Shown here: positions 2,167 through 43,788 of the stretch, piece by piece
How the letters are laid out: every line of letters begins with the position of its first letter
Position numbering within the stretch: position 1 is the first letter of the stretch
Source: Nannochloris sp. 'desiccata'
Lineage: Eukaryota > Chlorophyta > Trebouxiophyceae > Chlorellales > Chlorellaceae
Assembly (NCBI GenBank): GCA_019044685.2
Contig: JAGTXX020000002.1
Coordinates: forward strand, 1-64,000
Length of the DNA stretch: 64,000 nt
Reading direction: 5' to 3'
Notes under the pieces: model-generated
What the model was told of the DNA's origin: nothing
The model's input: the letters and a program-made list of their open reading frames with translations, nothing else
Databases searched by the model: none
Made by a program: the position numbers and the translations under genes

Positions 2167-3113
2167 TGGCGACCTGCCCCACCAGAATTCTTGTTGGGGC
2201 AGTGGGTAGACCTATGATTAGATTGACGACATATGAAGCACAAGTTATGGTGGCGTATAAAAGCTCTCAACTTTTCGCTATCTGGGTTCGTGTCGTCCAG
2301 CTTAGCTTTCAATGCCTCAACATTTGCAGGCTTGTAATCGCCAGTCAGCCATTTCACAGCACTCAGTGATTCCAGCATAGCAGCATAATTAAACCCACCA
2401 CCGCTCCTTTTGGTCGGGGGTTTAGGAGTATAAGCGGGCTTATCAGTAGGACCTCCCCTAGCTTGTTTCGCCTTCTGGTTGAATTTCTCAGCCATGGGAT
2501 TCACTGTCGCAACCAGTTCTTGGAAGTCCCAATTCTCAAACACGCGGCCATACTGTGACATGAAATCAAAAACTGATTCTTCGCTCATAGCATCCACATA
2601 GAACAAAGCTGCTGTTTTAGGATCCATGCCCAACTCTTTGAACGCTTCAGCAAGTCTTTCGGTTTCTTTGGGCACCGAGCGGCCGACAAAAGAAATCTTT
2701 TTCAGCACTCGGACGGCTTCCAGACGAGGGTTATTGGGATCACCGTAATTCGATTGAATCCATTCTTTCACATTATCCCAAGAACTCAGCAACTCAGCAG
2801 TACGAACGAGGCCAAAGGACTTCTCTACCTCGGGGCCGAAAGACTCGACCACAGCCTCAGCTCGCAACTTGGGGGAGAGATAATCACCAACACTACCCCC
2901 AAACATACGCTCTACTCTTTCTACGAAACCTTTGGTCTTACTTCGATCACCATTAAAGGCTCCTCCAGCCCGCAGTTGCTTCGCAACTTCGTTCTTCATT
3001 TTAAACTCGTCCAATGGACTCAAGATCACAGCGGTCTGCTGGCTTGCGCCAGCCTCTCCTTCATCAGCTTGACTCATAATACCTATTTGTCTTCCGTTGC
3101 GGAGTACAGGCAT
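2163..3113 (-). CDS. Gypsy family A Gag protein (copy 1)
   Basis: 316-aa Gag. The C-terminal part has one CCHC zinc knuckle (C-x2-C-x4-H-x4-C, starting CFIC). The N-terminal two thirds carry a retrotransposon capsid-like region with a conserved WDNVKEW-type segment. The protein is identical to the copy at 21930-22880. The stop codon is shared with the pol start in the four-base overlap ATGA, which points to termination-reinitiation rather than a Gag-Pol fusion. The start was chosen as the first ATG after the LTR and primer-binding site. Gag is the structural particle protein and binds element RNA. Confidence 0.9.
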   Translation of the reverse strand: MPVLRNGRQIGIMSQADEGEAGASQQTAVILSPLDEFKMKNEVAKQLRAGGAFNGDRSKTKGFVERVERMFGGSVGDYLSPKLRAEAVVESFGPEVEKSFGLVRTAELLSSWDNVKEWIQSNYGDPNNPRLEAVRVLKKISFVGRSVPKETERLAEAFKELGMDPKTAALFYVDAMSEESVFDFMSQYGRVFENWDFQELVATVNPMAEKFNQKAKQARGGPTDKPAYTPKPPTKRSGGGFNYAAMLESLSAVKWLTGDYKPANVEALKAKLDDTNPDSEKLRAFIRHHNLCFICRQSNHRSTHCPNKNSGGAGRQ

Positions 3114-3197
3114 ACAACAACAGGGCCAACAAGGTCAGTTCTAAATTTTGGAATTTTTATGATTAGATGGGCTTCCAAAATCCAAAGCTGAAACCAG

Positions 3198-3356
3198 TGT
3201 TAGAGTTTAACTCTTCTAGCAACTTTCTATTCAGCAAATCAACGTTACAGCACTTTTAGATAACAATTAAAGAGTGTTCAGCAATCAACAGCATCGGATT
3301 CAAGAAGAGAATCTAAAGGAATCTCAAGGAAGAAAGGAGTGAGTCAGTCTGTGACA
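3198..3356 (-). repeat. 5' LTR of Gypsy family A copy 1 (159 bp), with primer-binding site just inside
   Basis: On the minus strand the unit begins TGTCACAG at 3356 and ends CTAACA at 3198, giving the TG...CA ends expected of an LTR. One base later the minus strand reads TGGTTTCAGCTTTGG (about 3183-3196). This matches the equivalent position of family C (TGGTCTCAGCTTGGG) and looks like a tRNA primer-binding site. I did not identify the tRNA. The LTR identity is inferred, because no second LTR of this family is in the window. Confidence 0.72.
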
Positions 3357-3359
3357 CCG

Positions 3360-11207: not shown

Positions 11208-14164
11208 CGTCTCGACACAATCTCCAAGGTGGGTGACCTGGCTCAACTGAAAACGGCTGGGAATACCATGCACGCTCTCCTACACAGTCACTATAGCTAC
11301 ATGACCGGTAATCACAGCTCCATGACCGGTCTGAAGACCAGGCTGGAGGGGCAGCTGGTGGCATGGCCACCACCACAGTGCCCGTCTCGACACAATCTCC
11401 AAGGTGGGTGACCTGGCTCAACTGAAAACAGCTGGGAATACCATGCACGCTCTCCTACACATCCACTATAGCTACATGACCGGTAATCACAGCTCCATGA
11501 CCGGTCTGAAGACCAGGCTGGAGGGGCAGCTGGTGGCATGCCCCATCACCACAGTGAGCGTCTCGACACAATCTCCAAGGTGGGTGACCTGGCTCAACTG
11601 AAAACGGCTGGGAATACCATGCACGCTCTCCTACACATTCAATATCGCTACATGACCGGTAATCACAGCTCCATGACCGGTCTGAAGACCAGGCTGGAGG
11701 GGCAGCTGGTGGCATGCCCCATCACCACAGTGCCCGTCTCAACACAATCTCCAAGGTGGGTGACCTGGCTCAACTGAAAACGGCTGGGAATACCATGCAC
11801 GCTCTCCTACACATTCAATATAGCTACATGACCGGTAATCACAGCTCCATGACCGGTCTGAAGACCAGGCTGGAGGGGCAGCTGGTGGCATGCCCCATCA
11901 CCACAGTGAGCGTCTCGACACAATCTCCAAGGTGGGTGACCTGGCTCAACTGAAAACGGCTGGGAATACCATGCACGCTCTCCTACACATTCACTATAGC
12001 TACATGACCGGTAATCACAGCTCCATGACCGGTCTGAAGACCAGGCTGGAGGGGCAGCTGGTGGCATGCCCCATCACCACAGTGCCCGTCTCGACACAAT
12101 CTCCAAGGTGGGTGACCTGGCTCAACTGAAAACAGCTGGGAATACCATGCACGCTCTCCTACACATCAACTATAGCTACATGACCGGTAATCACAGCTCC
12201 ATGACCGGTCTGAAGACCAGGCTGGAGGGGCAGCTGGTGGCATACCCCATCACCACAGTGCCCGTCTCAACACAATCTCCAAGGTGGGTGACCTGGCTCA
12301 ACTGAAAACGGCTGGGAATACCATGCACGCTCTCCTACACATCCACTATAGCTACATGACCGGTAATCACAGCTCCATGACCGGTCTGAAGACCAGGCTG
12401 GAGGGGCAGCTGGTGGCATGCCCCATCACCACAGTGCCCGTCTCAACACAATCTCCAAGGTGGGTGACCTGGCTCAACTGAAAACAGCTGGGAATACCAT
12501 GCACGCTCTCCTACACATCAACTATAGCTACATGACCGGTAATCACAGCTCCATGACCGGTCTGAAGACCAGGCTGGAGGGGCAGCTGGTGGCATACCCC
12601 ATCACCACAGTGCCCGTCTCAACACAATCTCCAAGGTGGGTGACCTGGCTCAACTGAAAACGGCTGGGAATACCATGCACGCTCTCCTACACATTCAATA
12701 TCGCTACATGACCGGTAATCACAGCTCCATGACCGGTCTGAAGACCAGGCTGGAGGGGCAGCTGGTGGCATGCCCCATCACCACAGTGCCCGTCTCAACA
12801 CAATCTCCAAGGTGGGTGACCTGGCTCAACTGAAAACAGCTGGGAATACCATGCACGCTCTCCTACACATCCACTATAGCTACATGACCGGTAATCACAG
12901 CTCCCTGACCGGTCTGAAGACCAGGCTGGAGGGGCAGCTGGTGGCTAGCCCCATCACCACAGTGAGCGTCTCGACACAATCTCCAAGGTGGGTGACCTGG
13001 CTCAACTGAAAACGGCTGGGAATACCATGCACGCTCTCCTACACATTCACTATAGCTACATGACCGGTAATCACAGCTCCCTGACCGGTCTGAAGACCAG
13101 GCTGGAGGGGCAGCTGGTGGCATGCCCCATCACCACAGTGCCCGTCTCAACACAATCTCCAAGGTGGGTGACCTGGCTCAACTGAAAACAGCTGGGAATA
13201 CCATGCACGCTCTCCTACACATCCACTATAGCTACATGACCGGTAATCACAGCTCCATGACCGGTCTGAAGACCAGGCTGGAGGGGCAGCTGGTGGCTAG
13301 CCCCATCACCACAGTGAGCGTCTCGACACAATCTCCAAGGTGGGTGACCTGGCTCAACTGAAAACGGCTGGGAATACCATGCACGCTCTCCTACACATTC
13401 ACTATAGCTACATGACCGGTAATCACAGCTCCCTGACCGGTCTGAAGACCAGGCTGGAGGGGCAGCTGGTGGCATGCCCCATCACCACAGTGCCCGTCTC
13501 GACACAATCTCCAAGGTGGGTGACCTGGCTCAACTGAAAACAGCTGGGAATACCATGCACGCTCTCCTACACATCCACTATAGCTACATGACCGGTAATC
13601 ACAGCTCCATGACCGGTCTGAAGACCAGGCTGGAGGGGCAGCTGGTGGCATACCCCATCACCACAGTGAGCGTCTCGACACAATCTCCAAGGTGGGTGAC
13701 CTGGCTCAACTGAAAACGGCTGGGAATACCATGCACGCTCTCCTACACATTCAATATCGCTACATGACCGGTAATCACAGCTCCATGACCGGTCTGAAGA
13801 CCAGGCTGGAGGGGCAGCTGGTGGCATGCCCCATCACCACAGTGCCCGTCTCAACACAATCTCCAAGGTGGGTGACCTGGCTCAACTGAAAACAGCTGGG
13901 AATACCATGCACGCTCTCCTACACATCCACTATAGCTACATGACCGGTAATCACAGCTCCCTGACCGGTCTGAAGACCAGGCTGGAGGGGCAGCTGGTGG
14001 CATGCCCCATCACCACAGTGCCCGTCTCGACACAATCTCCAAGGTGGGTGACCTGGCTCAACTGAAAACAGCTGGGAATACCATGCCCGCTCTCCTACAC
14101 ATCCACTATAGCTACATGACCGGTAATCACGGCTCCATGACCGGTCTGAAGACCAGGCTGGAGC
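11208..14164. repeat. 176-bp satellite array, about 16.8 copies
   Basis: Units starting at CGTCTCGACACAATCTCC repeat every 176 bp (first spacing 175). Each unit holds two ATGACCGGT/CTGACCGGT blocks 18 bp apart. From about 12066 the units alternate between CAGCTGGG and CGGCTGGG versions, with linked changes (ATCCAC/ATCAAC versus ATTCAC/ATTCAATATCGC), so a 352-bp dimer is the higher-order unit. The array ends abruptly inside a unit at GGCTGGAG|CAGAATT. Short open frames in it are a by-product of the repeat, since 176 is not a multiple of three. Confidence 0.97.
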
Positions 14165-19554: not shown

Positions 19555-21933
19555 CTATATGTTTGCCTCAGCTTCAGCTAAAGCAAATTCATCAACCTTT
19601 AACCCATCTCTGATCTGCTGCATCAATTCATCGGCTGGCACAACCAGCGACAAAGCGTACAAACAGTGTGAATGATCGGGGCGACGGCTCAATGCATCTG
19701 CTACAACATTTAATTTTCCAGGCTTGTAACGGATAGTAGGTGGACCACCAAGCCAACTAGTGATACTACTAAACCAGCGCATAAATTTAGGACTCAACTC
19801 AGTGCTAGTATTTAGGTACTGTAAACTTTCGTGGTCGGTGAAAAATATTGGTGTTTCACCATTATTCAAATAGTGTCTCCATTTGTGAGCAGTCAGCTTG
19901 ATCGCTAAGAATTCTTTAGTTCTAGCATCATAATTCAACTCAGCACCACGTAACTTCCTAGAAAAGAAAGCGACAGGCTTCGGCGCAGCACCTGAACCAT
20001 CACTAGCAGCCTGCATCAAAACGGCACCGACAGCAATGTTTGATGCATCAGTGCAGACAACACATTGCTGGGTGGGATCGTATACTTGAAGTACAGGAGC
20101 GGTAGTAACAGCTCGTTTTAACTCATCAAAACGTTCAGCATGCAGGGGTGTCCAGATGTACACCATATTCTTCTTAGTCAACTCATTCAGCGGAGCAACG
20201 ATGTGAGCGTAGTTCCTGATAAAGTTTCTGTAAAACCCAGACAATCCAAGGAAACCACGTACTTCACTAGCATTTGAGGGCGTAGGCCACTCTAAAACAG
20301 CTTGAACTTTATCAGCAGCCATCTTAACACCATCAGCAGAGACTACAAAGCCCAAATAGTCAATATCAGTTTTAAAGAAAGAACATTTTGACTTTTTAGC
20401 CACTAAACCTTTTTCTCTCAACCTATCCAGCACCAGCTTAAGATGTGTTTCATGCTCTGCTTCATCCTTAGAAAAGATTAAGATATCATCCATATACACC
20501 AGCACGAAATCATTGATATAATCTTGAAAGATATTCATCATCAGCCTACTAAAAGTAGCGGGAGCGTTGTTTAGACCGAACGGCATTACTAAAAATTCGA
20601 AGAGGCCATAGGGTGTAGTAAACGCTGTCTTCTCAACATCAGCAGCAGCCATAGCAATTTGGTAGAAACCATTAAAACAATCAACTTTAGAAAACACTTT
20701 AGCACCAGTCAATCTGCGGATCTGATCTTCAACTATTGGCAGAGAATGCTCATCTCGGACAGTGACTTTATTCAAACCTCGGTAATCAACACAAAAGCGT
20801 AGAGAACCATCTTTCTTAGGCACAAACAACACAGGGGAAGCCCAAGGCGACTTAGAATGACGGATCAAACCTAAGTCCAGAAGCTCCTTCAGCCGTTTAC
20901 GGAGCTCATCTTCTTGAGCTACTGACATTCGATAAGGCGTTCGATGCACAGGCGCTGTGCCTTGCTTCAGCTTAATTTCATGCACAATACCTCTTTCAGG
21001 TGGCAGCCCAGGGGAACTAGTAGGGAATAGATCAGCATAATCAGAAAGAAGTCTTTCTATCTTCTTAGACACATCATTATCAGCAGTAGTAGCGGTAGCG
21101 TAGTTGTCAGCAGTAACAGCAACACCAGCAGGTCTATTTGGGGTTTGCATAGAAAACCCTAAATCCTTCTCAGCAAGCAGCAGTCCCTCTATATGTTCTC
21201 CTTCAATCATATAACACACAGAGTGTGTATTGTGCCTTTCCAGCTCATCAGTACGTTTCAGAAGCTTTTTAAAACTTTTCTTACTCAGCAGCCAGTCTGG
21301 GCGGCGCCCAGCATTACTTTCTTTAGCGACGGTAGTTGCCGATTTAATTTTCTTCACTCTACCATTTTTCAGCACGACTAAATCACCTGAGCTAAAGTCG
21401 ATATTAGCCTTCATTTTAATCAACCACGGTACCCCTAGAATGACATCATAGTTTTGCACGGGGTAGACTCGTAGATTCAGCGTATCATTAACACAGCCCA
21501 ACTTCAACTTAGAATTTCTCAACACTCGGTCACCGCTGTGGCGACGGCCATCAGCTAGAGTGACATTTACAGCAGCAGCAGCGTTCGTTTGCCATTCGTT
21601 CTTTCTGACAAAAGACTCAGAGACAATATTGAAACTTGATCCATTATCAATAAGAACACGAACATTCTTCTTATTCAGCACAGCATTATAAACAGTGGTC
21701 AGCGGAACAGCATCGTCCTTCACAGCGGCAAAAGTTGGCTCAGAACTCCAGCCGACTGTTGGCTCAGCAACAACGGAATAAGTATTTAATTCCGACACAT
21801 TCAGTTGCGTATTAAACTCCATCTTTTGATCCATTTTTAGATCCAGCCCAGCTTGGTTGGCTTCGGAAAACCAACTCCAAGTCACTTCACAACGCCTGCT
21901 GGCTGCGCTGTAAAGCGGAGCAGCAGCGCTCAT
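19555..21933 (-). CDS. Gypsy family A pol (protease, RT, RNase H), integrase missing
   Basis: 792 residues. Protease-like region with DNGSS near residue 96, reverse transcriptase with YMDD, then RNase H with all expected acidic positions visible (CTDAS, TKEFLA, FTDHESLQYL, ADALSRR). A normal Gypsy pol would continue with an integrase carrying an HHCC zinc site and a DDE core; here the frame ends 40 residues later at the LINE junction. The ATG start overlaps the gag stop as ATGA. Without integrase it is not autonomous, but the enzymes present look intact. Confidence 0.93.
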   Translation of the reverse strand: MSAAAPLYSAASRRCEVTWSWFSEANQAGLDLKMDQKMEFNTQLNVSELNTYSVVAEPTVGWSSEPTFAAVKDDAVPLTTVYNAVLNKKNVRVLIDNGSSFNIVSESFVRKNEWQTNAAAAVNVTLADGRRHSGDRVLRNSKLKLGCVNDTLNLRVYPVQNYDVILGVPWLIKMKANIDFSSGDLVVLKNGRVKKIKSATTVAKESNAGRRPDWLLSKKSFKKLLKRTDELERHNTHSVCYMIEGEHIEGLLLAEKDLGFSMQTPNRPAGVAVTADNYATATTADNDVSKKIERLLSDYADLFPTSSPGLPPERGIVHEIKLKQGTAPVHRTPYRMSVAQEDELRKRLKELLDLGLIRHSKSPWASPVLFVPKKDGSLRFCVDYRGLNKVTVRDEHSLPIVEDQIRRLTGAKVFSKVDCFNGFYQIAMAAADVEKTAFTTPYGLFEFLVMPFGLNNAPATFSRLMMNIFQDYINDFVLVYMDDILIFSKDEAEHETHLKLVLDRLREKGLVAKKSKCSFFKTDIDYLGFVVSADGVKMAADKVQAVLEWPTPSNASEVRGFLGLSGFYRNFIRNYAHIVAPLNELTKKNMVYIWTPLHAERFDELKRAVTTAPVLQVYDPTQQCVVCTDASNIAVGAVLMQAASDGSGAAPKPVAFFSRKLRGAELNYDARTKEFLAIKLTAHKWRHYLNNGETPIFFTDHESLQYLNTSTELSPKFMRWFSSITSWLGGPPTIRYKPGKLNVVADALSRRPDHSHCLYALSLVVPADELMQQIRDGLKVDEFALAEAEANI

Positions 21934-22880
21934 TGGCGACCTGCCCCACCAGAATTCTTGTTGGGGCAGTGGGTAGACCTATGATTAGATTGACGACATA
22001 TGAAGCACAAGTTATGGTGGCGTATAAAAGCTCTCAACTTTTCGCTATCTGGGTTCGTGTCGTCCAGCTTAGCTTTCAATGCCTCAACATTTGCAGGCTT
22101 GTAATCGCCAGTCAGCCATTTCACAGCACTCAGTGATTCCAGCATAGCAGCATAATTAAACCCACCACCGCTCCTTTTGGTCGGGGGTTTAGGAGTATAA
22201 GCGGGCTTATCAGTAGGACCTCCCCTAGCTTGTTTCGCCTTCTGGTTGAATTTCTCAGCCATGGGATTCACTGTCGCAACCAGTTCTTGGAAGTCCCAAT
22301 TCTCAAACACGCGGCCATACTGTGACATGAAATCAAAAACTGATTCTTCGCTCATAGCATCCACATAGAACAAAGCTGCTGTTTTAGGATCCATGCCCAA
22401 CTCTTTGAACGCTTCAGCAAGTCTTTCGGTTTCTTTGGGCACCGAGCGGCCGACAAAAGAAATCTTTTTCAGCACTCGGACGGCTTCCAGACGAGGGTTA
22501 TTGGGATCACCGTAATTCGATTGAATCCATTCTTTCACATTATCCCAAGAACTCAGCAACTCAGCAGTACGAACGAGGCCAAAGGACTTCTCTACCTCGG
22601 GGCCGAAAGACTCGACCACAGCCTCAGCTCGCAACTTGGGGGAGAGATAATCACCAACACTACCCCCAAACATACGCTCTACTCTTTCTACGAAACCTTT
22701 GGTCTTACTTCGATCACCATTAAAGGCTCCTCCAGCCCGCAGTTGCTTCGCAACTTCGTTCTTCATTTTAAACTCGTCCAATGGACTCAAGATCACAGCG
22801 GTCTGCTGGCTTGCGCCAGCCTCTCCTTCATCAGCTTGACTCATAATACCTATTTGTCTTCCGTTGCGGAGTACAGGCAT
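21930..22880 (-). CDS. Gypsy family A Gag protein (copy 2)
   Basis: 316 aa, same protein as copy 1, with one CCHC zinc knuckle near the C-terminus. It is related along its length to the Gag of family C at 26195 (shared IMSQ near the start, a DPNNPRL/DPENPRL-type segment, a KPANVEALKA/KPESVAALKA-type segment and the knuckle). Stop and pol start overlap by four bases. Confidence 0.9.
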   Translation of the reverse strand: MPVLRNGRQIGIMSQADEGEAGASQQTAVILSPLDEFKMKNEVAKQLRAGGAFNGDRSKTKGFVERVERMFGGSVGDYLSPKLRAEAVVESFGPEVEKSFGLVRTAELLSSWDNVKEWIQSNYGDPNNPRLEAVRVLKKISFVGRSVPKETERLAEAFKELGMDPKTAALFYVDAMSEESVFDFMSQYGRVFENWDFQELVATVNPMAEKFNQKAKQARGGPTDKPAYTPKPPTKRSGGGFNYAAMLESLSAVKWLTGDYKPANVEALKAKLDDTNPDSEKLRAFIRHHNLCFICRQSNHRSTHCPNKNSGGAGRQ

Positions 22881-22964
22881 ACAACAACAGGGCCAACAAG
22901 GTCAGTTCTAAATTTTGGAATTTTTATGATTAGATGGGCTTCCAAAATCCAAAGCTGAAACCAG

Positions 22965-23123
22965 TGTTAGAGTTTAACTCTTCTAGCAACTTTCTATTCA
23001 GCAAATCAACGTTACAGCACTTTTAGATAACAATTAAAGAGCGTTCAGCAATCAACAGCATCGGATTCAAGAAGAGAATCTAAAGGAATCTCAAGGAAGA
23101 AAGGAGTGAGTCAGTCTGTGACA
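22965..23123 (-). repeat. 5' LTR of Gypsy family A copy 2
   Basis: Same 159-bp unit as 3198-3356, TG...CA ends on the minus strand. One visible difference from copy 1 lies in the AGAGYGTTCAG segment near 23041. Confidence 0.72.
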
Positions 23124-23125
23124 CC

Positions 23126-25174
23126 GTTCCGCCTCCAGAGAATATAGAAGGGTTGCTACAAACTCCTTTCTCAATGGAAGAACTTTCACCAGTGCTGAAA
23201 AAGATTAAGAATCAAGCTGGTATGATTGGTACATTGAGGCCTGAGCTGTTGAAAGCATCAGTAGAGCATCTTGGTCCAGCTATAGTAGAGCTGCTAAACG
23301 CCTCGGTGGCAATAGGCAAGCTGCCCAAAGTTTGGGCACTGAGCGCCATTACACCTATAGCCAAGCCAGGGAGTGATCATAGAACGTGTGATGGATATCG
23401 TGGAATAGCAGTAGGTACTCTAGCTGCCAAACTGTATGGTTCTATGCTTGATCACAGAATTGATGGCTGGGCGGAGGCGAGCGGTATTCGAGCAAAGGGT
23501 CAGTTTGGTTTTAGAAAAGGCAAAGGAACTGCCTCAGCGTCCTTTATAGTGCGCACTCTATTTGATCAAGTAAGAACCCAGAAAGGTGGTAGGCTGTACA
23601 CATGCTTTGTTGATTTTAAGAAAGCATACGATTCAGTTCCCCGCCACTTGCTCTGGGCGAAACTTGAGCGCAGAGGAGTGACTGGCTGGGTTCTGGATGC
23701 TATAAAAGCCATGTATGCTGATGTTCCTATGTGTGTGAAGTCGTCTACAGGTCTAGGAAAAGTTTTTCAATCAAATTTAGGGGTGAAGCAGGGTTGCCCA
23801 CTAAGCCCACTTTTATTTGGTCTTTACCTAGATGACTGGGATGCTGAGCTTAAAGCAGCTTCTGAAGCTCCTGATGATGAATCAGACAAGTTTGATTTCC
23901 CTAATTTAGCTGGAGAAGATCTTCGCAGCTTGATGTATGCTGATGATTTGATGCAGGCGGCAACGTCGATTGACGGTCTCCGCAAGCAAATGGCACTGCT
24001 GGAGGACTTTTCTGCTCGCTGGGGCCTCACTATTAACGCTTCTAAAACTAAAGTGATGGTTTTTAGCAGACTCAATTCTCCACATGTAGCAAAAACAGCT
24101 GTGCTGAAAATTGGCGGCGAGGTGGTGGAGGTAGTGGAAAGATTTAAATATCTTGGTACTATTTTTCATTGCTCTCAGATGCTATCTAGACATGCTGTAC
24201 CTGCTAGAGCATATAATGGCCGTAGAGCATACCATATTTCCAGAAGAAGGCTGGCTGAGCTGCAACTCGGTGGTGGACTTGAGATTAATTTCAGACTTTT
24301 TGATGTGATGGTTGACTCTGTACTTGGCTATGGCGCTGAGGTCTGGGCTCCTGAGCTCCTATGCAATGATCCTTTAAGCAATGATTGTGAACGTGTTCAT
24401 TTATTTGCTCTGAAGTGGTTACTAGGAGTAAGGAAGAGCACTGCTAGCTGCATTGTTCTTGCAGAAACCGGCCGCTGGCCCTTGGCTTTCCGTTGGGTCA
24501 AAAGGATAGCTAGATTCTATAATGGACTAGTCAAAGCACCAGCTGATAGCATTTTAAAACGTGCTTTCATTGCTAATTGCCAATTGACATCAAACCCAGC
24601 TGAAGGCAGTGCCAAATGTATGGCTGAGCAGTCTTGGGCAGCACAGCTGCAGCGTGCTTTTAAGAAATTTGAAGTGCAACTACCTCTGGAGGAGCCTATC
24701 GAACTAAATGTGAATGATGTTTGCATCAAGTGGAAGGAATTCTACTTGAATAGAGTGCGGACAGAGACTGGAACTAAAATTAAAAAATATGTTCATGAAG
24801 TCAGAAATGGGCTGCCGGAGTACGAAGCCGCTCCTTACTTGGGAGTGTCTGCGGTCAGTGACAGGCGAGCAATGACACAAGCAATGACTGGATCTCATTT
24901 TCTGATGGAAGAAGTAGGGAGATGGAATCAGTTGGCAAAAGAAGACAGAGTATGCAAACAATGTGCTGAAAAAGAAGTTAAAACTGTCGAGACGGCCGAA
25001 CATTTGTTTTTCCACTGTCCTAGTTATGATGATATTAGGGCAGATTTTCCTTGTTTAGACTTCACACTAACTAATTTACACGAGTTCTCAATGCAGCAGC
25101 CAACCCAAATTACCAGGTTTGGCAAGAAATGTTTTGAACTGCATCAAGAACTCAACCCGCTGTCGAGGCGGTAG
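23126..25174 (+). pseudogene. LINE ORF2 fragment: reverse transcriptase and zinc-binding C-terminus
   Basis: About 680 residues without a stop. RT motifs: FVDFKKAYDSV, GVKQGCPLSPLLF and YADD. The C-terminal part has a conserved block (FDVMVDSVLGYGAEVW) and a Cys/His cluster (CKQC ... HLFFHC) like the zinc-binding region that ends many plant LINE RTs. No start codon of its own; the N-terminal endonuclease was cut off by the Gypsy A insertion. Confidence 0.88.
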
Positions 25175-30767: not shown

Positions 30768-30867
30768 CCGTTGCTCTTTAAAGACGTCGCAAAACGCAAT
30801 ACGAAAAGGTTGTGCACCCCCTCCTCCTTCCTCCTCTACCGGTGGACGGATCAAAACCAATTTTCTA

Positions 30868-33800
30868 ATGCAAGCTGGCCGACAATGCTCTTCTCCAGTC
30901 GCCTTCACAAACCTCACTTGTACGAAACAGGAAGAACGGGTACGTTCCCGTTTATTTTCTACTGAACTGATGATACTAACGCTATGAATGACAGCACTCG
31001 TGTATACCATTGGTTTTGAGGCCTCAAACCTATCGTTATCAGCTCCATTCAACCATTCTTTCTTCCAATTTTCAGGCAACCATCCATCCACTGCAGCAAG
31101 TCTTTTTATTGCTACTAGAATCTCTTTACCCCAATCGTCCATAGAAGGCTCTACTCCAGTAAACAACATAGCTACATCATTTTCGTCTCTTGTTGCGCCT
31201 TCATCAACGTTCTTATTACGTCGTATTTTTTTAAAAGCTTCTTTTTGTACGCTGGCTAAGGTCGGATTCGAAACCAACTTTTTTTGCAATACGTGATTAA
31301 TAGCGTACCCTTCAGCAATAGTTAGCTCAGGATATTCAGAAGTAGTATGGCCTCTAGTTTTGCTCTTCCCACTCGTCATGTTATTTTCGACGTGCATTTC
31401 GTTATATCGTATTGGTTGGCCCATTTCTTCTTCTTGACGGGGGAGGCGGCAACACGCTGTATGCAAATTAAATTTGCAAATTTGGCGGGAAAGTCCAATA
31501 TTCTCGGCCCAAGCACCATAATCAAACAATGCTTTGGCAGCGGCTTCGCGTGCTATAGCGGAATGGCAAGTATCCGGATTCAAATGCGGCCTAAAATAAT
31601 GCAGCAAGGCTTTCCGTAATAACTTCCATCCTTTTTTCATTTCGGGTGGCAAGACTTCTACCCCTACTACGACGTCGTTGAATAGAACTTTAGAAGTACA
31701 ATCAACAAAGGTACTAACATGTTCAATCAGCCATCCTCTATGCACAGAAAGTGGTTGAATTGGCCGCCCGAAATCACCAGTTAATTGGATCCGGCCTTCA
31801 ATTTCAGCAATCTTTCTTTTCGCTTCATTACTAATTTCCATGCTTTCCTTCCTTAACTTGGTTTCTTTATGGCCCATAGCAAGTTTTAAAAAATCCTTTA
31901 CAACACCTAAATATAGCATATGGTAAAGTGGGAGTAGGAAAAGGTTGCGAGCGTTCAAGTACGGGAGGTGTGGTAAGATGATGCACTTTCCCATGCAACC
32001 TAAATTGGCCGCAGCCTCCTTATTGCGTTCAGATATAAGCTCTTCAGCAGCCGCTTCGCGTTGGGATTGATGCTCCTCCGTAACCATTCTTCTCCTATCA
32101 TCCATTGACAGGGGTTCCGCTACTTTCACAGAACCGTCCCGCTGTGTTATTTTTCCAAAGACAAAACCGCAACTAGGTTCCACATGTTTAGCATATCCAC
32201 GCATTACCATCGTACCGTTTGAAATATCTAATTCACCTTCAATATTAACCCGTTCTCCTGTGAGCCAACACCAAAAGCAAGCTAAATATGCCGCTGCGGT
32301 GCCAGTAGATTTTAATAGTTTTGCTCTTGCAGGAGCATCAGCGTATATAAACACTAGAATAGGTATGTGATAGAACGGAGTTCCGGCTTTTTGAGGTCGC
32401 AAAGCATCGATATCATCATTTACTTCAACATTATCTGCCACTGTCGCCGCCGCTGGAGAGCCTTGAGCAGTACAGGCAGTACCTAGAGGCTGTTCATATT
32501 GCATTGGGGTGACGAGGATACCGGGACCGCCACTAAGCGGGCCAATCTTCTTAAAGTTTATGGCTATTAACCCCATATATGCATCCAAACTCTCTGGAAT
32601 GTTAGGACCAGGGATAATCATCAGGGGCAAATCGTAACGGCGTTTGCTACGTACTTCATCTGGTAGGGACTCACTCCGGAGGTGCACCAAGCCAACAGAA
32701 TACTCTTGGTGCCCAAACAAGTTCACAAAATCGTATCCTATAGAGTAAGCTCCATTTTGGGGGTGAAATAAAGCATAATTCGTTTTCCTATTGATCTCCT
32801 CAGCCGCTGGAGAAGACCAAAAGCTCCCTGGATCCTCTTTCATCTCCTCGTAATCGCTAGGTCTTGCTTCTACCCAATCTGCCATTGAGAACAAACGTTT
32901 GATGGTGTTTTCAACACCAAAATAATAGCATCTCTTAGACGGCTTGAAGCCACCGCCACTTAAAGCAAGAAAGCGGGGGCTCTTACATTTAGGGCAAGTA
33001 TCTTCACGGTGGCTATTCCACTGCTTACGCTCAGTAGAATCGTACATATGCTGTCCACAAGAACATACGTGCCGTTCATAAGGCTCTAACCCTTTAAAGC
33101 CTAGTGACTTTCTTAAGACATCGTACGTTTTGGGTAGCTTATGACCGCTGGGCAACAATGCTCCAATGAGTTTCAACATGATTGAAGTAGCTTTCTCCGT
33201 GAAACGTTCCTCGTGCGCTACAACCAATATGAGGTAAGATGCTTCCAAGACGGTGAGCTGGCATGTTGCACTTTCATCAACATGCCATAATGGCTCATTG
33301 TGATTCATCTCAAAATACCTTGCTTCGTTTATGCGTGGCTGGCGATGATCATTAAAATCATCAAGAGTAAGTGGTAGCATATCCAATGTTAGGTCGTCTT
33401 CAAATGAAGTTTGATCGTCTTCAAATGAACCCTCGGACCCACCAGCATTGGCGGCATCTTGCATCTCGTGATCATTTGAAGCAGAAGGTGAATCTGCGGC
33501 CATATCGTCTTCCATGCTGCCATGGTCACCATGATGGTTGTCATACATGTCGTCTTCCATGGGAGTTGGCCGCTGAAGGCCAGGTTCCGTTTGGACTTGA
33601 GCAGAGGTCGGCATGGCCGATGTTGAGGGACCCTGTTGCTGGTTACCCTGCAACGCCTAATGTAACAAGTAAGGAAGAAGAATAGGAAGTAATATTAGAG
33701 CAGAAGACAGAGAAACTAGGTATGTCGGCGGGGTTTTGACGTGGCATGTTCGAAAAATTCGATGAATTTGAAGCTTACCTGCCCAAGATGGGAATTTGGA

Positions 33801-33964
33801 AGGAGTGCGTCTTTGCATTTAGTGTGGTGATGGCGCCAAGTGTAATATTCGGCTGTTCCGACATCGCAGGCAGGCCTAGGCTTACTGGGATCCTTGCAAT
33901 ATATGCACACTTCAGCGTTGATAGTTGGATCAAGGATGGAGATGGTATTTTTCCTAGGGGCCAT
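30868..33964 (-). pseudogene. Tnp2-like transposase, left copy, C-terminus lost
   Basis: Exon 1 33964-33779, exon 2 33656 (or 33647) down to the palindrome edge. It is the same as the right-arm transposase up to ...HCRPACI. The frame then runs for 39 unrelated codons to a stop at 30750 inside the Gypsy B LTR. The oxygenase-like domain present in the right copy is absent. The transposase core itself has no visible break. Confidence 0.85.
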
Positions 33965-34155
33965 GTTGTTTACTGTGGTTAACAAGTATGGAAGAGTTGA
34001 AAAGCAACCCGCTTTCATTGAAAGAGGCTTTATTTCCTGAAGGCTTTTTAAGGAAAGATTCAAAAAAAAAAAATAACAAGAGAGGAAATCGCGTAAAAGA
34101 ATGCAAAGGATGGAGGTTTTCACAGAATTAACTGTTATTCTTGGATCAGAAAATT
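33965..34155. promoter_or_regulatory. Divergent promoter region of the left transposon copy
   Basis: 191 bp between the transposase start (33964) and the accessory gene start (34156), too short for anything but a shared bidirectional promoter with two 5' UTRs. Contains a poly-A run at 34062-34072. Mirror image at 37797-37987. Confidence 0.55.
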
Positions 34156-35589
34156 ATGGTTAAGACAATACTCCAACTCAGAACAACGGAAGACGGCGCA
34201 CAAGGCAGCGTGAACGTCCCCATTGAGTTGAAGAATGACCCCAACTGGCAGCTGGCGACGCCAAAGCGTCGCCTAAAGGCGGCATTTGATGACATCAAGA
34301 CCTCAAATGACTTGGAGGGGAAGCGGAAATGCGTCCGCATTCACGGCAAAGATGCAAGCGGAGTGGCCACATTAATGTCACCTGCTGCAATTTTAGACGG
34401 AATTAAGTCCTTAGCAGCTGGTAATGACGCCCACGAAGCTTTCTTTTCTGGTTGCACCAGTGATACAATTACTCTGGAGGTGTCATTCGTGGACGGAGCA
34501 AGTCACAGCTTCCAATGTCTGGACACTATGGATGAGAATGGCGGAAGCAATGGCACTGGTACTGGTGCAACGGTAAGTATAACATGGCAACTGATTGTGC
34601 TGTCAATGCAAGGTAACTAATACTCAGGCGCTATTTACTTGCTTGCAGAGTGTGGGAGGAGTCAACAGGAACAAATTGACAAAGGAGGAGACAGAGAAAT
34701 TAAATGAGGTGGTTGAAAAATATTGCGCTCAATACAACGGTAGGGATGGGAGCATCCCATATGGTTGCTTTGGTTTTGACAAACCACAGAACGAGAGATT
34801 GAAAAACAAGGTCGAAAAGCTTTTTTGGACCCCTGGCTACTTTTTTGCCATTTGTAGCGTCGTTAACTTCTCTACACCTCGTGGAGGTCAACCCCGTGTC
34901 ACAGAAAAACGCGTAAAGAGCGCTGTCAGAACACGAATGTCGAATCTCAATAGCGAAATGGTAAAGTTCGCGGCCGAGCCTGGATATATTGGGTCTAAGA
35001 GTGCAGCGTGGGATGAGAGCGTTAGAAGGAGAGTGGAGAACTGGACTCACGATTACTTGGTGTACTACAAAGCAGAAGGGTACCCAAAAGAATGGGAGAA
35101 GTTAATCAGTGGCAAACTACAGGGGATGAGGGTGAGTGAATATTATTGCAGGTGGTACTTATTGTTTTGTTACCGCCCTAGACTAATTATTCCACAATTA
35201 ATTATTTGCAGAGAAAGTGGAAGGCAATGACACTTGCTGAAGCCAAGGAAATCGTATCCCATTTTGAAAACTTAGAGGGAGAGGAGCAAGAAGAGGAAGA
35301 GATGCAAGAGGAAGAGGAGCAAGAAGAGGAAGAGATGGACGAGGAACAATTGGCGGAAGCAATGGCTGCAGGGCAGGAAGATGCTGAACAGCAGGCGGAA
35401 CAATATGATTGGGAAATTGGACAATTAAATGCAAAAGAAATTGCTTTGCAACAGCAGCAAAGCAAAAAGGATGCCAGGAAGGAGCGAGGTGCAGCTGGTG
35501 GTAGCCAGCGTGCTGCAGCTGCCGTCGCAACAGCAGTGGGTGCTGCTAGTGGTAGCCAACGTAATAGACGTACTGGAAGTCAAAGATAG
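34156..35589 (+). CDS. Transposon accessory protein, left copy (425 aa, 3 exons)
   Basis: Exons 34156-34572, 34649-35131 and 35212-35589; all phase 0, GT-AG. The ATG was preferred over an upstream in-frame TTG. The first exon encodes a compact, beta-rich-looking region. The middle exon is basic and aromatic with RKLTKEE-like and WTHDYLVYY segments. The last has a long Glu/Gln-rich acidic stretch, probably a coiled coil, and a Ser/Arg/Gln tail. I recognise no family. Its divergent pairing with the transposase in both arms suggests a role in transposition, such as binding the element ends. Confidence 0.75.
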
Positions 35590-35639
35590 AAGTCTTGAGG
35601 TTGTTGCTATGTTGTTGTCCTGCATTACAGTTACCCATA

Positions 35640-36310
35640 GCGCCTTAATAATGATGTGTGTATATCCTCTCTTGGAACTCTCCCCAACTTGTCTTTATTT
35701 CTTTCTAATAATGTCATTTCTTCCTCCTGAAAGTATCCTTTGTCTATCCTATATCCATCCTTGACTTTTCATGCAAACTTCCCTAGCCATCTTTTCTTTA
35801 TCCTAAAACGTTCCTGGACTTTTCTCCTGAAACTTCCCTAGCCATCTTTTCTTTATCCTAAAACTGTCCTGGACTTTTCTCCTAAAAGTTCCTACTCGTC
35901 TTTTTTTATCCTGAAGTATGTACTAATGGTCCTAAAAGTGTCCTAAATCTATCCTGACAAAAGATGAATTCAGGATACTTTCAGGACACTTTCAGGTTTG
36001 CAATTATGATACTTACAGGAAAAGTGATAGGACAACTTCAGGATAAAAAAAGACGAGTAGGAACTTTTAGGAGAAAAGTCCAGGACAGTTTTAGGATAAA
36101 GAAAAGATGGCTAGGGAAGTTTCAGGAGAAAAGTCCAGGAACGTTTTAGGATAAAGAAAAGATGGCTAGGGAAGTTTGCATGAAAAGTCAAGGATGGATA
36201 TAGGATAGACAAAGGATACTTTCAGGAGGAAGAAATGACATTATTAGAAAGAAATAAAGACAAGTTGGGGAGAGTTCCAAGAGAGGATATACACACATCA
36301 TTATTAAGGC
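35640..36310. repeat. Palindrome centre: iterated TCCTGAAAGT-type motifs and inner hairpin
   Basis: About 50-bp tandem units (CTTTTCTCCTGAAACTTCCC ... TTTATCCTAAAACTGTCCTGGA) occur on each side of the centre, and TCCT(G/A)AAA(G/C)T-like decamers recur more than ten times. The 119-bp spacer (35917-36035) is not part of the perfect palindrome. It still holds an imperfect inverted pair, CCTAAAAGTGTCCTAAA against the complement of TTCAGGACACTTTCAGG. Such subterminal repeats are typical of transposase-binding ends of CACTA-like elements. Confidence 0.75.
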
Positions 36311-36362
36311 GCTATGGGTAACTGTAATGCAGGACAACAACATAGCAACAACCTCAAGACTT

Positions 36363-37796
36363 CTATCTTTGACTTCCAGTACGTCTATTACGTTGGCTAC
36401 CACTAGCAGCACCCACTGCTGTTGCGACGGCAGCTGCAGCACGCTGGCTACCACCAGCTGCACCTCGCTCCTTCCTGGCATCCTTTTTGCTTTGCTGCTG
36501 TTGCAAAGCAATTTCTTTTGCATTTAATTGTCCAATTTCCCAATCATATTGTTCCGCCTGCTGTTCAGCATCTTCCTGCCCTGCAGCCATTGCTTCCGCC
36601 AATTGTTCCTCGTCCATCTCTTCCTCTTCTTGCTCCTCTTCCTCTTGCATCTCTTCCTCTTCTTGCTCCTCTCCCTCTAAGTTTTCAAAATGGGATACGA
36701 TTTCCTTGGCTTCAGCAAGTGTCATTGCCTTCCACTTTCTCTGCAAATAATTAATTGTGGAATAATTAGTCTAGGGCGGTAACAAAACAATAAGTACCAC
36801 CTGCAATAATATTCACTCACCCTCATCCCCTGTAGTTTGCCACTGATTAACTTCTCCCATTCTTTTGGGTACCCTTCTGCTTTGTAGTACACCAAGTAAT
36901 CGTGAGTCCAGTTCTCCACTCTCCTTCTAACGCTCTCATCCCACGCTGCACTCTTAGACCCAATATATCCAGGCTCGGCCGCGAACTTTACCATTTCGCT
37001 ATTGAGATTCGACATTCGTGTTCTGACAGCGCTCTTTACGCGTTTTTCTGTGACACGGGGTTGACCTCCACGAGGTGTAGAGAAGTTAACGACGCTACAA
37101 ATGGCAAAAAAGTAGCCAGGGGTCCAAAAAAGCTTTTCGACCTTGTTTTTCAATCTCTCGTTCTGTGGTTTGTCAAAACCAAAGCAACCATATGGGATGC
37201 TCCCATCCCTACCGTTGTATTGAGCGCAATATTTTTCAACCACCTCATTTAATTTCTCTGTCTCCTCCTTTGTCAATTTGTTCCTGTTGACTCCTCCCAC
37301 ACTCTGCAAGCAAGTAAATAGCGCCTGAGTATTAGTTACCTTGCATTGACAGCACAATCAGTTGCCATGTTATACTTACCGTTGCACCAGTACCAGTGCC
37401 ATTGCTTCCGCCATTCTCATCCATAGTGTCCAGACATTGGAAGCTGTGACTTGCTCCGTCCACGAATGACACCTCCAGAGTAATTGTATCACTGGTGCAA
37501 CCAGAAAAGAAAGCTTCGTGGGCGTCATTACCAGCTGCTAAGGACTTAATTCCGTCTAAAATTGCAGCAGGTGACATTAATGTGGCCACTCCGCTTGCAT
37601 CTTTGCCGTGAATGCGGACGCATTTCCGCTTCCCCTCCAAGTCATTTGAGGTCTTGATGTCATCAAATGCCGCCTTTAGGCGACGCTTTGGCGTCGCCAG
37701 CTGCCAGTTGGGGTCATTCTTCAACTCAATGGGGACGTTCACGCTGCCTTGTGCGCCGTCTTCCGTTGTTCTGAGTTGGAGTATTGTCTTAACCAT
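36363..37796 (-). CDS. Transposon accessory protein, right copy (425 aa, 3 exons)
   Basis: Mirror of 34156-35589: exons 37796-37380, 37303-36821 and 36740-36363. The predicted protein is identical to the left copy: an N-terminal compact region, a basic middle, a Glu-rich acidic coiled-coil-like region and a Ser/Arg/Gln tail. Function unknown. Both copies are intact, so a single nucleus would have two identical sources of this protein. Confidence 0.75.
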
Positions 37797-37987
37797 AATT
37801 TTCTGATCCAAGAATAACAGTTAATTCTGTGAAAACCTCCATCCTTTGCATTCTTTTACGCGATTTCCTCTCTTGTTATTTTTTTTTTTTGAATCTTTCC
37901 TTAAAAAGCCTTCAGGAAATAAAGCCTCTTTCAATGAAAGCGGGTTGCTTTTCAACTCTTCCATACTTGTTAACCACAGTAAACAAC
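37797..37987. promoter_or_regulatory. Divergent promoter region of the right transposon copy
   Basis: Mirror of 33965-34155, between the accessory gene start (37796) and the transposase start (37988). Confidence 0.55.
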
Positions 37988-40900
37988 ATGGCCCCTAGGA
38001 AAAATACCATCTCCATCCTTGATCCAACTATCAACGCTGAAGTGTGCATATATTGCAAGGATCCCAGTAAGCCTAGGCCTGCCTGCGATGTCGGAACAGC
38101 CGAATATTACACTTGGCGCCATCACCACACTAAATGCAAAGACGCACTCCTTCCAAATTCCCATCTTGGGCAGGTAAGCTTCAAATTCATCGAATTTTTC
38201 GAACATGCCACGTCAAAACCCCGCCGACATACCTAGTTTCTCTGTCTTCTGCTCTAATATTACTTCCTATTCTTCTTCCTTACTTGTTACATTAGGCGTT
38301 GCAGGGTAACCAGCAACAGGGTCCCTCAACATCGGCCATGCCGACCTCTGCTCAAGTCCAAACGGAACCTGGCCTTCAGCGGCCAACTCCCATGGAAGAC
38401 GACATGTATGACAACCATCATGGTGACCATGGCAGCATGGAAGACGATATGGCCGCAGATTCACCTTCTGCTTCAAATGATCACGAGATGCAAGATGCCG
38501 CCAATGCTGGTGGGTCCGAGGGTTCATTTGAAGACGATCAAACTTCATTTGAAGACGACCTAACATTGGATATGCTACCACTTACTCTTGATGATTTTAA
38601 TGATCATCGCCAGCCACGCATAAACGAAGCAAGGTATTTTGAGATGAATCACAATGAGCCATTATGGCATGTTGATGAAAGTGCAACATGCCAGCTCACC
38701 GTCTTGGAAGCATCTTACCTCATATTGGTTGTAGCGCACGAGGAACGTTTCACGGAGAAAGCTACTTCAATCATGTTGAAACTCATTGGAGCATTGTTGC
38801 CCAGCGGTCATAAGCTACCCAAAACGTACGATGTCTTAAGAAAGTCACTAGGCTTTAAAGGGTTAGAGCCTTATGAACGGCACGTATGTTCTTGTGGACA
38901 GCATATGTACGATTCTACTGAGCGTAAGCAGTGGAATAGCCACCGTGAAGATACTTGCCCTAAATGTAAGAGCCCCCGCTTTCTTGCTTTAAGTGGCGGT
39001 GGCTTCAAGCCGTCTAAGAGATGCTATTATTTTGGTGTTGAAAACACCATCAAACGTTTGTTCTCAATGGCAGATTGGGTAGAAGCAAGACCTAGCGATT
39101 ACGAGGAGATGAAAGAGGATCCAGGGAGCTTTTGGTCTTCTCCAGCGGCTGAGGAGATCAATAGGAAAACGAATTATGCTTTATTTCACCCCCAAAATGG
39201 AGCTTACTCTATAGGATACGATTTTGTGAACTTGTTTGGGCACCAAGAGTATTCTGTTGGCTTGGTGCACCTCCGGAGTGAGTCCCTACCAGATGAAGTA
39301 CGTAGCAAACGCCGTTACGATTTGCCCCTGATGATTATCCCTGGTCCTAACATTCCAGAGAGTTTGGATGCATATATGGGGTTAATAGCCATAAACTTTA
39401 AGAAGATTGGCCCGCTTAGTGGCGGTCCCGGTATCCTCGTCACCCCAATGCAATATGAACAGCCTCTAGGTACTGCCTGTACTGCTCAAGGCTCTCCAGC
39501 GGCGGCGACAGTGGCAGATAATGTTGAAGTAAATGATGATATCGATGCTTTGCGACCTCAAAAAGCCGGAACTCCGTTCTATCACATACCTATTCTAGTG
39601 TTTATATACGCTGATGCTCCTGCAAGAGCAAAACTATTAAAATCTACTGGCACCGCAGCGGCATATTTAGCTTGCTTTTGGTGTTGGCTCACAGGAGAAC
39701 GGGTTAATATTGAAGGTGAATTAGATATTTCAAACGGTACGATGGTAATGCGTGGATATGCTAAACATGTGGAACCTAGTTGCGGTTTTGTCTTTGGAAA
39801 AATAACACAGCGGGACGGTTCTGTGAAAGTAGCGGAACCCCTGTCAATGGATGATAGGAGAAGAATGGTTACGGAGGAGCATCAATCCCAACGCGAAGCG
39901 GCTGCTGAAGAGCTTATATCTGAACGCAATAAGGAGCCTGCGGCCAATTTAGGTTGCATGGGAAAGTGCATCATCTTACCACACCTCCCGTACTTGAACG
40001 CTCGCAACCTTTTCGTACTCCCACTTTACCATATGCTATATTTAGGTGTTGTAAAGGATTTTTTAAAACTTGCTATGGGCCATAAAGAAACCAAGTTAAG
40101 GAAGGAAAGCATGGAAATTAGTAATGAAGCGAAAAGAAAGATTGCTGAAATTGAAGGCCGGATCCAATTAACTGGTGATTTCGGGCGGCCAATTCAACCA
40201 CTTTCTGTGCATAGAGGATGGCTGATTGAACATGTTAGTACCTTTGTTGATTGTACTTCTAAAGTTCTATTCAACGACGTCGTAGTAGGGGTAGAAGTCT
40301 TGCCACCCGAAATGAAAAAAGGATGGAAGTTATTACGGAAAGCCTTGCTGCATTATTTTAGGCCGCATTTGAATCCGGATACTTGCCATTCCGCTATAGC
40401 ACGCGAAGCCGCTGCCAAAGCATTGTTTGATTATGGTGCTTGGGCCGAGAATATTGGACTTTCCCGCCAAATTTGCAAATTTAATTTGCATACAGCGTGT
40501 TGCCGCCTCCCCCGTCAAGAAGAAGAAATGGGCCAACCAATACGATATAACGAAATGCACGTCGAAAATAACATGACGAGTGGGAAGAGCAAAACTAGAG
40601 GCCATACTACTTCTGAATATCCTGAGCTAACTATTGCTGAAGGGTACGCTATTAATCACGTATTGCAAAAAAAGTTGGTTTCGAATCCGACCTTAGCCAG
40701 CGTACAAAAAGAAGCTTTTAAAAAAATACGACGTAATAAGAACGTTGATGAAGGCGCAACAAGAGACGAAAATGATGTAGCTATGTTGTTTACTGGAGTA
40801 GAGCCTTCTATGGACGATTGGGGTAAAGAGATTCTAGTAGCAATAAAAAGACTTGCTGCAGTGGATGGATGGTTGCCTGAAAATTGGAAGAAAGAATGGT

Positions 40901-42033
40901 TGAATGGAGCTGATAACGATAGGTTTGAGGCCTTAAAACCAATGGTATACACGAGTGCTGTCATTCATAGCGTTAGTATCATCAGTTCAGTAGAAAATAA
41001 ACGGGAACGTACCCGTTCTTCCTGTTTCGTACAAGTGAGGTTTGTGAAGGCGACTGGAGAAGAGCATTGTCGGCCAGCTTGCATTCTCAAGATGCCGTCA
41101 GAGGAAAAATATTATTTATTATTTGCTAGCGTTGACCTTTGCCAATTGCGCTTGTTGACGTTAGAGGGAGCGAGCGTGTTGGGTCACGCCAACGAAGCGA
41201 TAGCTGATTCAACATTAAGCGTACCGATAACATCACCAGCTACAAAGCGGGCTCATTGGAAGTTGTTGGGAACTGAAATCTTAAATCTACCAAAACAATT
41301 GAAGAGCAAGGTAGGAAGTAATTATAAGAAGATAAAACGTAGAATTCCCCCCGCTAACATGTTTTCTACGTTCCTTCGCTACTCTAGGAACCCTAAAGAC
41401 TATAAAAACGGGACCCAAGTTGGTGGTCGTACTGTAAATGGGGAACCCGTAAAGCAACAAACTGCCTGCTCCTCTGCTATCGCTAGCCGTGAAGTACATA
41501 ACGTTATTATGCAAGCGATGAAGCCGATAACTCTGTTACAAAGAGACTTTTTAGCTGCTAACAATCCTACTACCACGTCAGTAGTAGTTAATTGGATGAA
41601 TATGAATGCCAAGGCTATCACGACGGGTGGTTGGGGCGTTCTACCTCACTTAGATGGTATGGATTCTGGGGGCGTAGCTTACATAATTCAGTACGGACTA
41701 GGAGATTTGAGAGAATTACACGGAGGACATATGTGCTTGCCGCAATTACACCTAATTTGCCCAGTAGGAGCCTGCACTGTGCATTTTTTAAGAACTGGCT
41801 CTTTATTACACAATTCATTGCCTCACGTTGCAAGTGAGAAAGCACGGGTAGTTGGCACATCATTACACGTCAATAAAAGTTTTTTGATAATGTCTAACGC
41901 TCAAAGTAGGATGCAGGGTCTTGATGGCGAGGGCTATGTGCAGTACGCTCAGGAAAGTTGCATTGACAGTGAAACTTTAAAGGACTGCACAGAGATGAAA
42001 AAGTTATTAAAATTTGGAAATTGGAGGGTTTAA
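37988..42033 (+). CDS. Tnp2-like transposase with C-terminal 2OG-Fe(II) dioxygenase-like domain (1307 aa)
   Basis: Exon 1 37988-38173, exon 2 38296 (or 38305)-42033, both phase 0. Exon 1 encodes a zinc-finger-like segment (CIYC ... HHHTKC), perhaps BED-like. Then an acidic linker, a second Cys cluster (CSCG ... CPKC, near residues 255-290), and a Tnp2-type core: IIPGPNIPESLDAYMG (about 410), FIYADAPARAKLL with a candidate catalytic Asp (about 500), CFWC (about 520) and YHMLYLGVVKDF (about 640). In relatives the last motif usually carries an Asp before the His; here it reads LPLYH. The C-terminal domain shows H1180-x-D1182, GACTVHFLRTG, H1234 or H1239 and R1246, the order and spacing of a 2-oxoglutarate/Fe(II) dioxygenase. 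TET/JBP enzymes of this class oxidise methylpyrimidines in DNA and accompany KDZ transposons; substrate here is inference. Confidence 0.75.
38296..41085 (+). mobile_element. DNA transposon of CACTA/KDZ-like type, right copy (gene part within palindrome)
   Basis: The element runs from near the palindrome centre to beyond 42033. It comprises the accessory gene, the divergent promoter, the transposase-oxygenase gene and perhaps the OTU-like gene that follows. I could not define terminal inverted repeats or a target duplication on the right side, so the outer end is unknown. The class is assigned from the transposase motifs alone. Confidence 0.6.
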
Positions 42034-42952: not shown

Positions 42953-43788
42953 TTAGAGAAATGCAATTTTACAAGATAGTTTTAGGATAGTTGCAAGAAG
43001 ACTTGTTCCCCCTAGTGATTGTGGCTCTTCAACTGCTGTTTCATCCACTTTTGGAGGTAGGCGATCCAAAATTTTCCCCATCTTTTCATAAGCTTTCAAT
43101 GCTCTCTCATAACTGTCTTGTTGACGTTGAACAAGGTAGCTCAGGTCATCATTTTGAAGGGACCACAAAGAAGAAGGGTATATCTCCTTTGTTTTGGCAT
43201 CTCCATGAAGCCTAGTGATGACCTCCCGCAGGTTTCTTAGCAAAGGATCATTCAAGAAACCTGGATCAAGTCCTTCATGGATGTAGTCTTCGACTCCATA
43301 AAGATAGCTACGAAGTTCGTCTACGGATTGAGAAGCAGGAATGACAGAACCTTCAAAAGGCATGATACCAAAAAATTTCCGGCGCCGGCAGTCAATAGTT
43401 CTCCGTAAAAAGTACGTAGGTGTAATAGCCATATTTACGCAGGTGTTGGTCATACCGATCAGCTCGTCGCAAACGTCGTAAAAGACTTTTCGTAACTCGG
43501 GGGAGGCACCATCAGGTTCAGGTCTGTAACACGCATTACCTAGGAGGTCAAACCTTCGAATCAGATTTTCAGCAAGTTGACGTCCATACGTTTGCTTGAC
43601 TTCGCGTATATTACTTTTTGTAACATCAACAACCTTCACCATGGCAGCAGAAATTACTTGAGGTGAAACCAGCTGGCACAGCGACCGTTTATGGAGCTGC
43701 TCCAAGGGCAGCAAGCAATCACTGCCGTTGACCTTCTTCACAGCAGTAGCCAAGCAAGCAAAACCCCCATAGGCGATAGCAGTCTCTA
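42953..43788 (-). pseudogene. 3' part of a second member of the 671-aa unknown gene family
   Basis: From ETAIAYGG to IRRFDL (43788-43553) it is nearly identical to 3768-3531. It then continues with what is probably the natural C-terminus (GNACYRPEPDG ... DELRSYLYGVEDYI ... LLRNLREVITRLHGD ... ending CKIAFL) that the first copy has lost. Upstream of 43788 the similarity stops abruptly, so the 5' part is missing. Function unknown. Confidence 0.75.

Follow-up and report, generated by a model that had tools for sequence, protein, structure and literature searches.

We propose, with a probability of roughly 0.8, that a CACTA-type transposon of this green alga carries separate genes for a transposase and a TET/JBP-like oxygenase, that the copy studied here was fused by a 1,645-bp deletion, and that the oxygenase may serve to relieve silencing of the element. 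The window, that is the whole stretch of 64 kb that was analysed, formed the beginning of contig C2 in a genome of 18 contigs and 21.55 Mb, and it began with CCCTAAA telomere repeats. The sequence-only reading had interpreted the long frame in this window as a fusion that would link base oxidation to the transposase itself. This interpretation was not supported: in the other copies found these were two genes, and the window copy was an internal-deletion derivative. The fusion was thus very probably the deletion scar of a single rearranged copy and not a natural architecture.

The reading frame itself was real. It ran uninterrupted for 1,244 codons from 38299 to 42033, and the HxD motif, the distal His and the Arg of the putative oxygenase core were located in it (Table 1). 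Joined through the intron to an exon starting at ATG 37988, the stretch 38305-42033 gave a protein of 1,304 residues, P0005 (KSW81_003806), which had been annotated on an 812,218-base contig of another assembly of the same species.

Table 1. Features of the fused copy and its surroundings, in window coordinates
Feature	Positions	Strand	Basis or remark
Second transposase copy, in the left palindrome arm	30768..33964	-	start is the mirror of 37988; 99 native bp past the junction-matching point, then truncated
Inverted repeat, ~10.2 kb, 99.5% identical, centre ~35976	30867..41085	.	transposon sequence near telomere
Left end of the copy on the right; lacks the terminal CACT that C8 and C16 have	35915..35935	+	
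Three divergent ORFs (127, 211 and 159 aa), possible third element gene	36363..37811	-	
Transposase, first exon	37988..38173	+	sequence; agrees with the N-terminus of P0005
Intron, GT..AG	38174..38304	+	sequence compared with P0005
Transposase part, stopping after codon 929 of the frame from 38299; native last 105 residues absent	38305..41085	+	
Deletion junction; one base (T) common to both sides	41085..41086	.	nucleotide comparison with C14
TET/JBP-like oxygenase, codons 172-486 and stop; first 171 codons absent	41086..42033	+	
HxD; distal His; Arg	41647-41655; 41809-41811; 41845-41847	+	
Right terminus of the element, last bases CTAGTG	42996..43017	+	

Elsewhere in the genome the two genes were separate, and both the junction and the pieces missing from the window copy were directly visible. 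At the junction, codon 929 of the transposase frame abutted codon 172 of a separate gene of 486 codons. In the nucleotide comparison with the copy on contig C14 (locus L009), the match to the left side ended at 4847 and the match to the right side resumed at 6492, with 1,645 bp in between. In this interval lay the native last residues of the transposase and its stop, with the frame ending at 5165, followed by intergenic sequence and the first portion of the second gene. On C14 the transposase and oxygenase genes stood in tandem, and the transposase terminated at its own stop. When the fused protein was searched against the genome, at least 10 places matched, the window copy included, and the junction was absent from all the other copies found. 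Among the matches listed, residues 1-932 occurred by themselves in the left arm of the window palindrome and on C14, and residues 929-1244 by themselves on C8, C14 and C16; smaller or diverged pieces were present on C18, C1 (two matches) and C6.

The sequence on each side of the break had a native continuation. To the left it ran on in C14, in C18 and, for 99 bp, in the left palindrome arm, and to the right it extended backwards in C14, C8 and C16. The C18 copy was colinear with L009 4650-6464 except for two nested insertions and reached the end of its contig. Its two genes were separated by an insertion that resembled a retrotransposon (region L013 2013-7273), had direct repeats of 228 bp and showed a duplication of 5 bases. 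Both lost protein ends also had relatives: a diverged transposase on C1 aligned up to residue 910 of P0006, in whose numbering the break fell at residue 838, and the N-terminal part of the oxygenase had counterparts in P0003 and in a decayed copy on C6. Because of the native continuation on both sides of the break and the relatives of both lost ends, the fused form is, as judged from these comparisons, a derived state without 105 transposase and 171 oxygenase residues. An intron at 41085/41086 was considered and rejected, since the breakpoints in C14 were not GT..AG and the interval contained the transposase stop. An insertion into the C14 copy was likewise rejected, because the left arm, C18, C8 and C16 carried parts of the same interval. 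The copies of the element were about 99.8-99.9% identical in nucleotide comparison, so the deletion was probably young.

A genuine transposase-oxygenase, made as one protein and acting on bases where the transposase binds, would agree with a frame that stays open across the junction, with the 1,304-residue protein annotated in the other assembly, and with the mostly retained C-terminal core of the oxygenase. However, we regarded this as very improbable, given that the junction was absent from the other copies found, that the conserved ends of both proteins were gone, and that the element had no left end. When proteins were searched with the fused frame, 7,997 candidates were scored and all that came back belonged to this species. 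The fused protein was most likely a non-functional by-product of the deletion. Because the same protein was annotated in a second assembly of the species, the chimera may nevertheless be a real, standing allele. In the very improbable event that it is transcribed and active, one internal deletion would have produced a transposase with its own TET/CMD1-like base oxidiser altering the DNA that it binds.

The window copy lay within a large palindrome, and a wrong joining of copies during assembly might have created both the junction and the palindrome. The palindrome arm ended exactly at the junction, at 41085, and a subtelomere with near-identical copies is consistent with such an error. On the other hand, the other assembly, whose contig measured 812,218 bases and not 804,739 as here, had the same fused protein, a comparison to be read with the possibility that the two assemblies share reads, and the two arms differed at 3 of 3,845 compared positions. 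We thus considered an assembly error unlikely, and a true deletion remained the preferred explanation of the junction.

On C16 the element had CACTAG..CTAGTG termini and a TAT duplication. The C8 copy retained CACTAG on the left and had a right end without the last TG, and no clean short target duplication was seen around it. It was located between 271-bp direct repeats (L010 774-1044 and 5903-6173) that were 99.6% identical, resembled a retrotransposon fragment, and far exceeded the usual size of a target duplication. Neither the C14 nor the window copies had an intact left end. C8 and C16 had a different internal deletion, by which the transposase was lost and the oxygenase gene stayed complete. 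The C14 copy, with both genes in tandem, was itself damaged: a stop interrupted the transposase frame early, and the beginning of the oxygenase was shifted by one base. No copy found in the genome thus had both genes whole. CpG ratios and the differences between copies were uninformative. The three divergent ORFs at 36363-37811 matched no Pfam family over the cut-off.

With respect to the transposase, no Pfam match was obtained. Its diverged C1 paralogue (L012 2359-5504, near the contig start) was 26-27% identical, and candidate D, CxxC and E motifs were conserved between the two as judged by eye; conservation of H(3-4)H was not seen in this pair. The EnSpm/Plavaka consensus served as the reference. 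A search of the genome with the oxygenase listed no match on C1. Taken together, the CACTA ends, the single TAT duplication and the partial motifs suggested a CACTA-type element with a distant EnSpm/Plavaka (Tnp2)-like transposase. The sequence-only reading had recognised a Tnp2-like core in the N-terminal part of the frame, and the same evidence was compatible with this.

A protein database search with the oxygenase (8,000 candidates scored) returned four proteins, two from the same alga and two environmental ones at 42-44% identity. A profile search among 7,752 candidates, with a length limit that left out proteins as long as the fusion, returned the same four. One scan each of viral and of prokaryote contigs gave no further homologues, and a tblastn search of phage with P0004 gave no matches. 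Residues H343, D345 and H397 (numbering of P0001) had the order and spacing of the TET/JBP iron triad and were invariant in three distinct homologues; R409, the candidate 2OG-binding residue after the distal His, was invariant as well, and the alignment with the phage profile described below ended before it. Among fully aligned columns, 50 of 99 were invariant in residues 327-440 versus 46 of 194 in residues 125-326. Taken alone, the HxD/H/R pattern was weak because 1,190 of 20,000 shuffles of the 470-aa protein also showed it. When the pattern was limited to columns invariant in the three homologues, it arose in 5 of 20,000 shuffles, or in 38 of 20,000 if the shuffling was confined to the core.

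No Pfam (Tet_JBP included), NCBIfam or PHROG family fitted the oxygenase, no PDB sequence, that of CMD1 included, was matched with the algal sequences alone, and the Tet_JBP model matched nothing in the genome. Genome searches with the Plavaka and 2OG-FeII_Oxy_6 models also found nothing and say little, since their controls matched nowhere either. We therefore turn to A5, a profile built from nine phage TET/JBP proteins. One of its members, Nigel gp2, matched Pfam Tet_JBP at E 4.3e-6, below the curated cut-off. A5 gave 11 hits, some of them unrelated chains, and the E values were 0.0019 for TET2, 0.015 for NgTET and 1.3 for CMD1. An hhalign comparison of the algal core with A5 extended over 129 columns and scored 24.0; HxD and the distal His were in register, and the reported probability was only 1-4%. 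In two series of column shuffles, 2 of 300 and none of 100 scored as high, and the reversed core scored 12.7. Against profiles of host P4H-type and AlkB-type proteins the core was out of register, and 20 and 3 of 100 shuffles, respectively, equalled or exceeded its scores.

CMD1 is a 5mC-modifying TET homologue of Chlamydomonas and is not known as transposon-borne. A joint profile of three algal-type and five of the nine phage sequences found it at E 0.0056, with TET2 weakened to 0.76 and NgTET no longer listed; the HLDxxD, GG..LP and H..P motifs of CMD1 aligned with the algal protein in this profile. Scored directly on the CMD1 stretch, the core obtained 5.2 bits, which 3 of 1,777 scored shuffles reached, a result that was not independent because the stretch had been chosen by the joint profile. 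On the Nigel stretch the core obtained 12.7 bits, a score that 0 of 1,754 shuffles reached, and on the NgTET stretch there was no match (-1.9 bits, reached by 1,516 of 1,702 shuffles).

It was moderately supported by these comparisons that the second protein is a distant TET/JBP-like oxygenase. The earlier proposal of a C-terminal TET/JBP-type domain agreed with the invariant HxD/H/R residues, the register match with phage proteins and the CMD1 hit; two AlphaFold models of the oxygenase, at pLDDT values of 29 and 30, gave no usable fold in which a double-stranded beta-helix could be recognised. In the proposed comparison with AlkB and prolyl hydroxylases, HxD and the distal His were in register with the phage TET/JBP profile and not with the host P4H-type and AlkB-type profiles. 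It is less likely, yet plausible, that the second gene is not TET/JBP-like, with the HxD/H/R spacing being coincidental or belonging to another family. The frequency of the simple pattern in shuffled proteins, the empty library searches, the low pLDDT and the unmatched NgTET would fit this alternative, whereas the rarity of the pattern in invariant columns, the register shared with phage TET/JBP but not with the P4H- and AlkB-type profiles, and the recovery of CMD1 by the joint profile argued against it.

According to the explanation that we prefer, the algal CACTA-type (EnSpm/Plavaka-like) transposon would have two genes on the same strand, for the transposase and for a TET/JBP-like 2OG-Fe(II) oxygenase, and perhaps a divergent third. 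In its subtelomeric copy in the window, the 1,645-bp deletion would have joined the two genes in frame by chance; this copy is also part of an inverted duplication and has lost its left end. The intact oxygenase would most likely act on the element's DNA by oxidising 5-methylcytosine or a base related to it, and this oxidation might relieve silencing, by analogy with the proposal for fungal TET-bearing transposons. The presence of 5mC in the host is plausible, since PF00145 methyltransferase matches were found at four places in the genome.

Among known systems, Iyer reportedly described in 2014 that KDZ transposons have the transposase and the TET/JBP protein encoded by neighbouring separate genes, an arrangement like that of the algal element. 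Unlike KDZ, the latter was bounded by CACTAG..CTAGTG with a TAT duplication, and its transposase resembled Tnp2/Plavaka; by its ends and transposase it was probably not KDZ-like. EnSpm and Plavaka transposons of fungi that carry TET/JBP genes have been published, and the paper argued that these genes relieve methylation-based silencing, stating that this was not experimentally validated (Kojima 2025, PMC12730594). The fungal elements were likewise cut-and-paste transposons of the CMCT type with a TET/JBP-type gene beside the transposase, and the EnSpm families had CAC..GTG ends and a 3-bp duplication, similar to the algal ends and TAT duplication on C16 (PMC12730594). In contrast to the fungal PE type with its HxE motif, the algal oxygenase had HxD, formed its own family and possessed an extra N-terminal part; in comparison with the fungal CMCT elements, the host was a green alga and no conservation of H(3-4)H was observed in the transposase (PMC12730594).

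Among the titles and opening parts of abstracts listed by searches of an open-licence library, no TET-bearing transposon of green algae was described. The algal element was probably a new case of a known kind of transposon and a modest extension from fungi. A plausible layout, in which the TET/JBP-like gene of a CACTA-type element from a green alga stands by itself, takes the place of a striking but misleading fusion. If confirmed, this would mean that non-fungal transposons, too, bring along a means of countering methylation-based silencing, here in an alga whose genome is small.

Two further repeats were present in the window. A tandem array at 11208-14163 consisted of 16.8 copies of a 176-bp unit with 96% matches, and a 3.1-kb direct repeat (225-3359 and 19992-23126) was 99.8% identical between its two copies.
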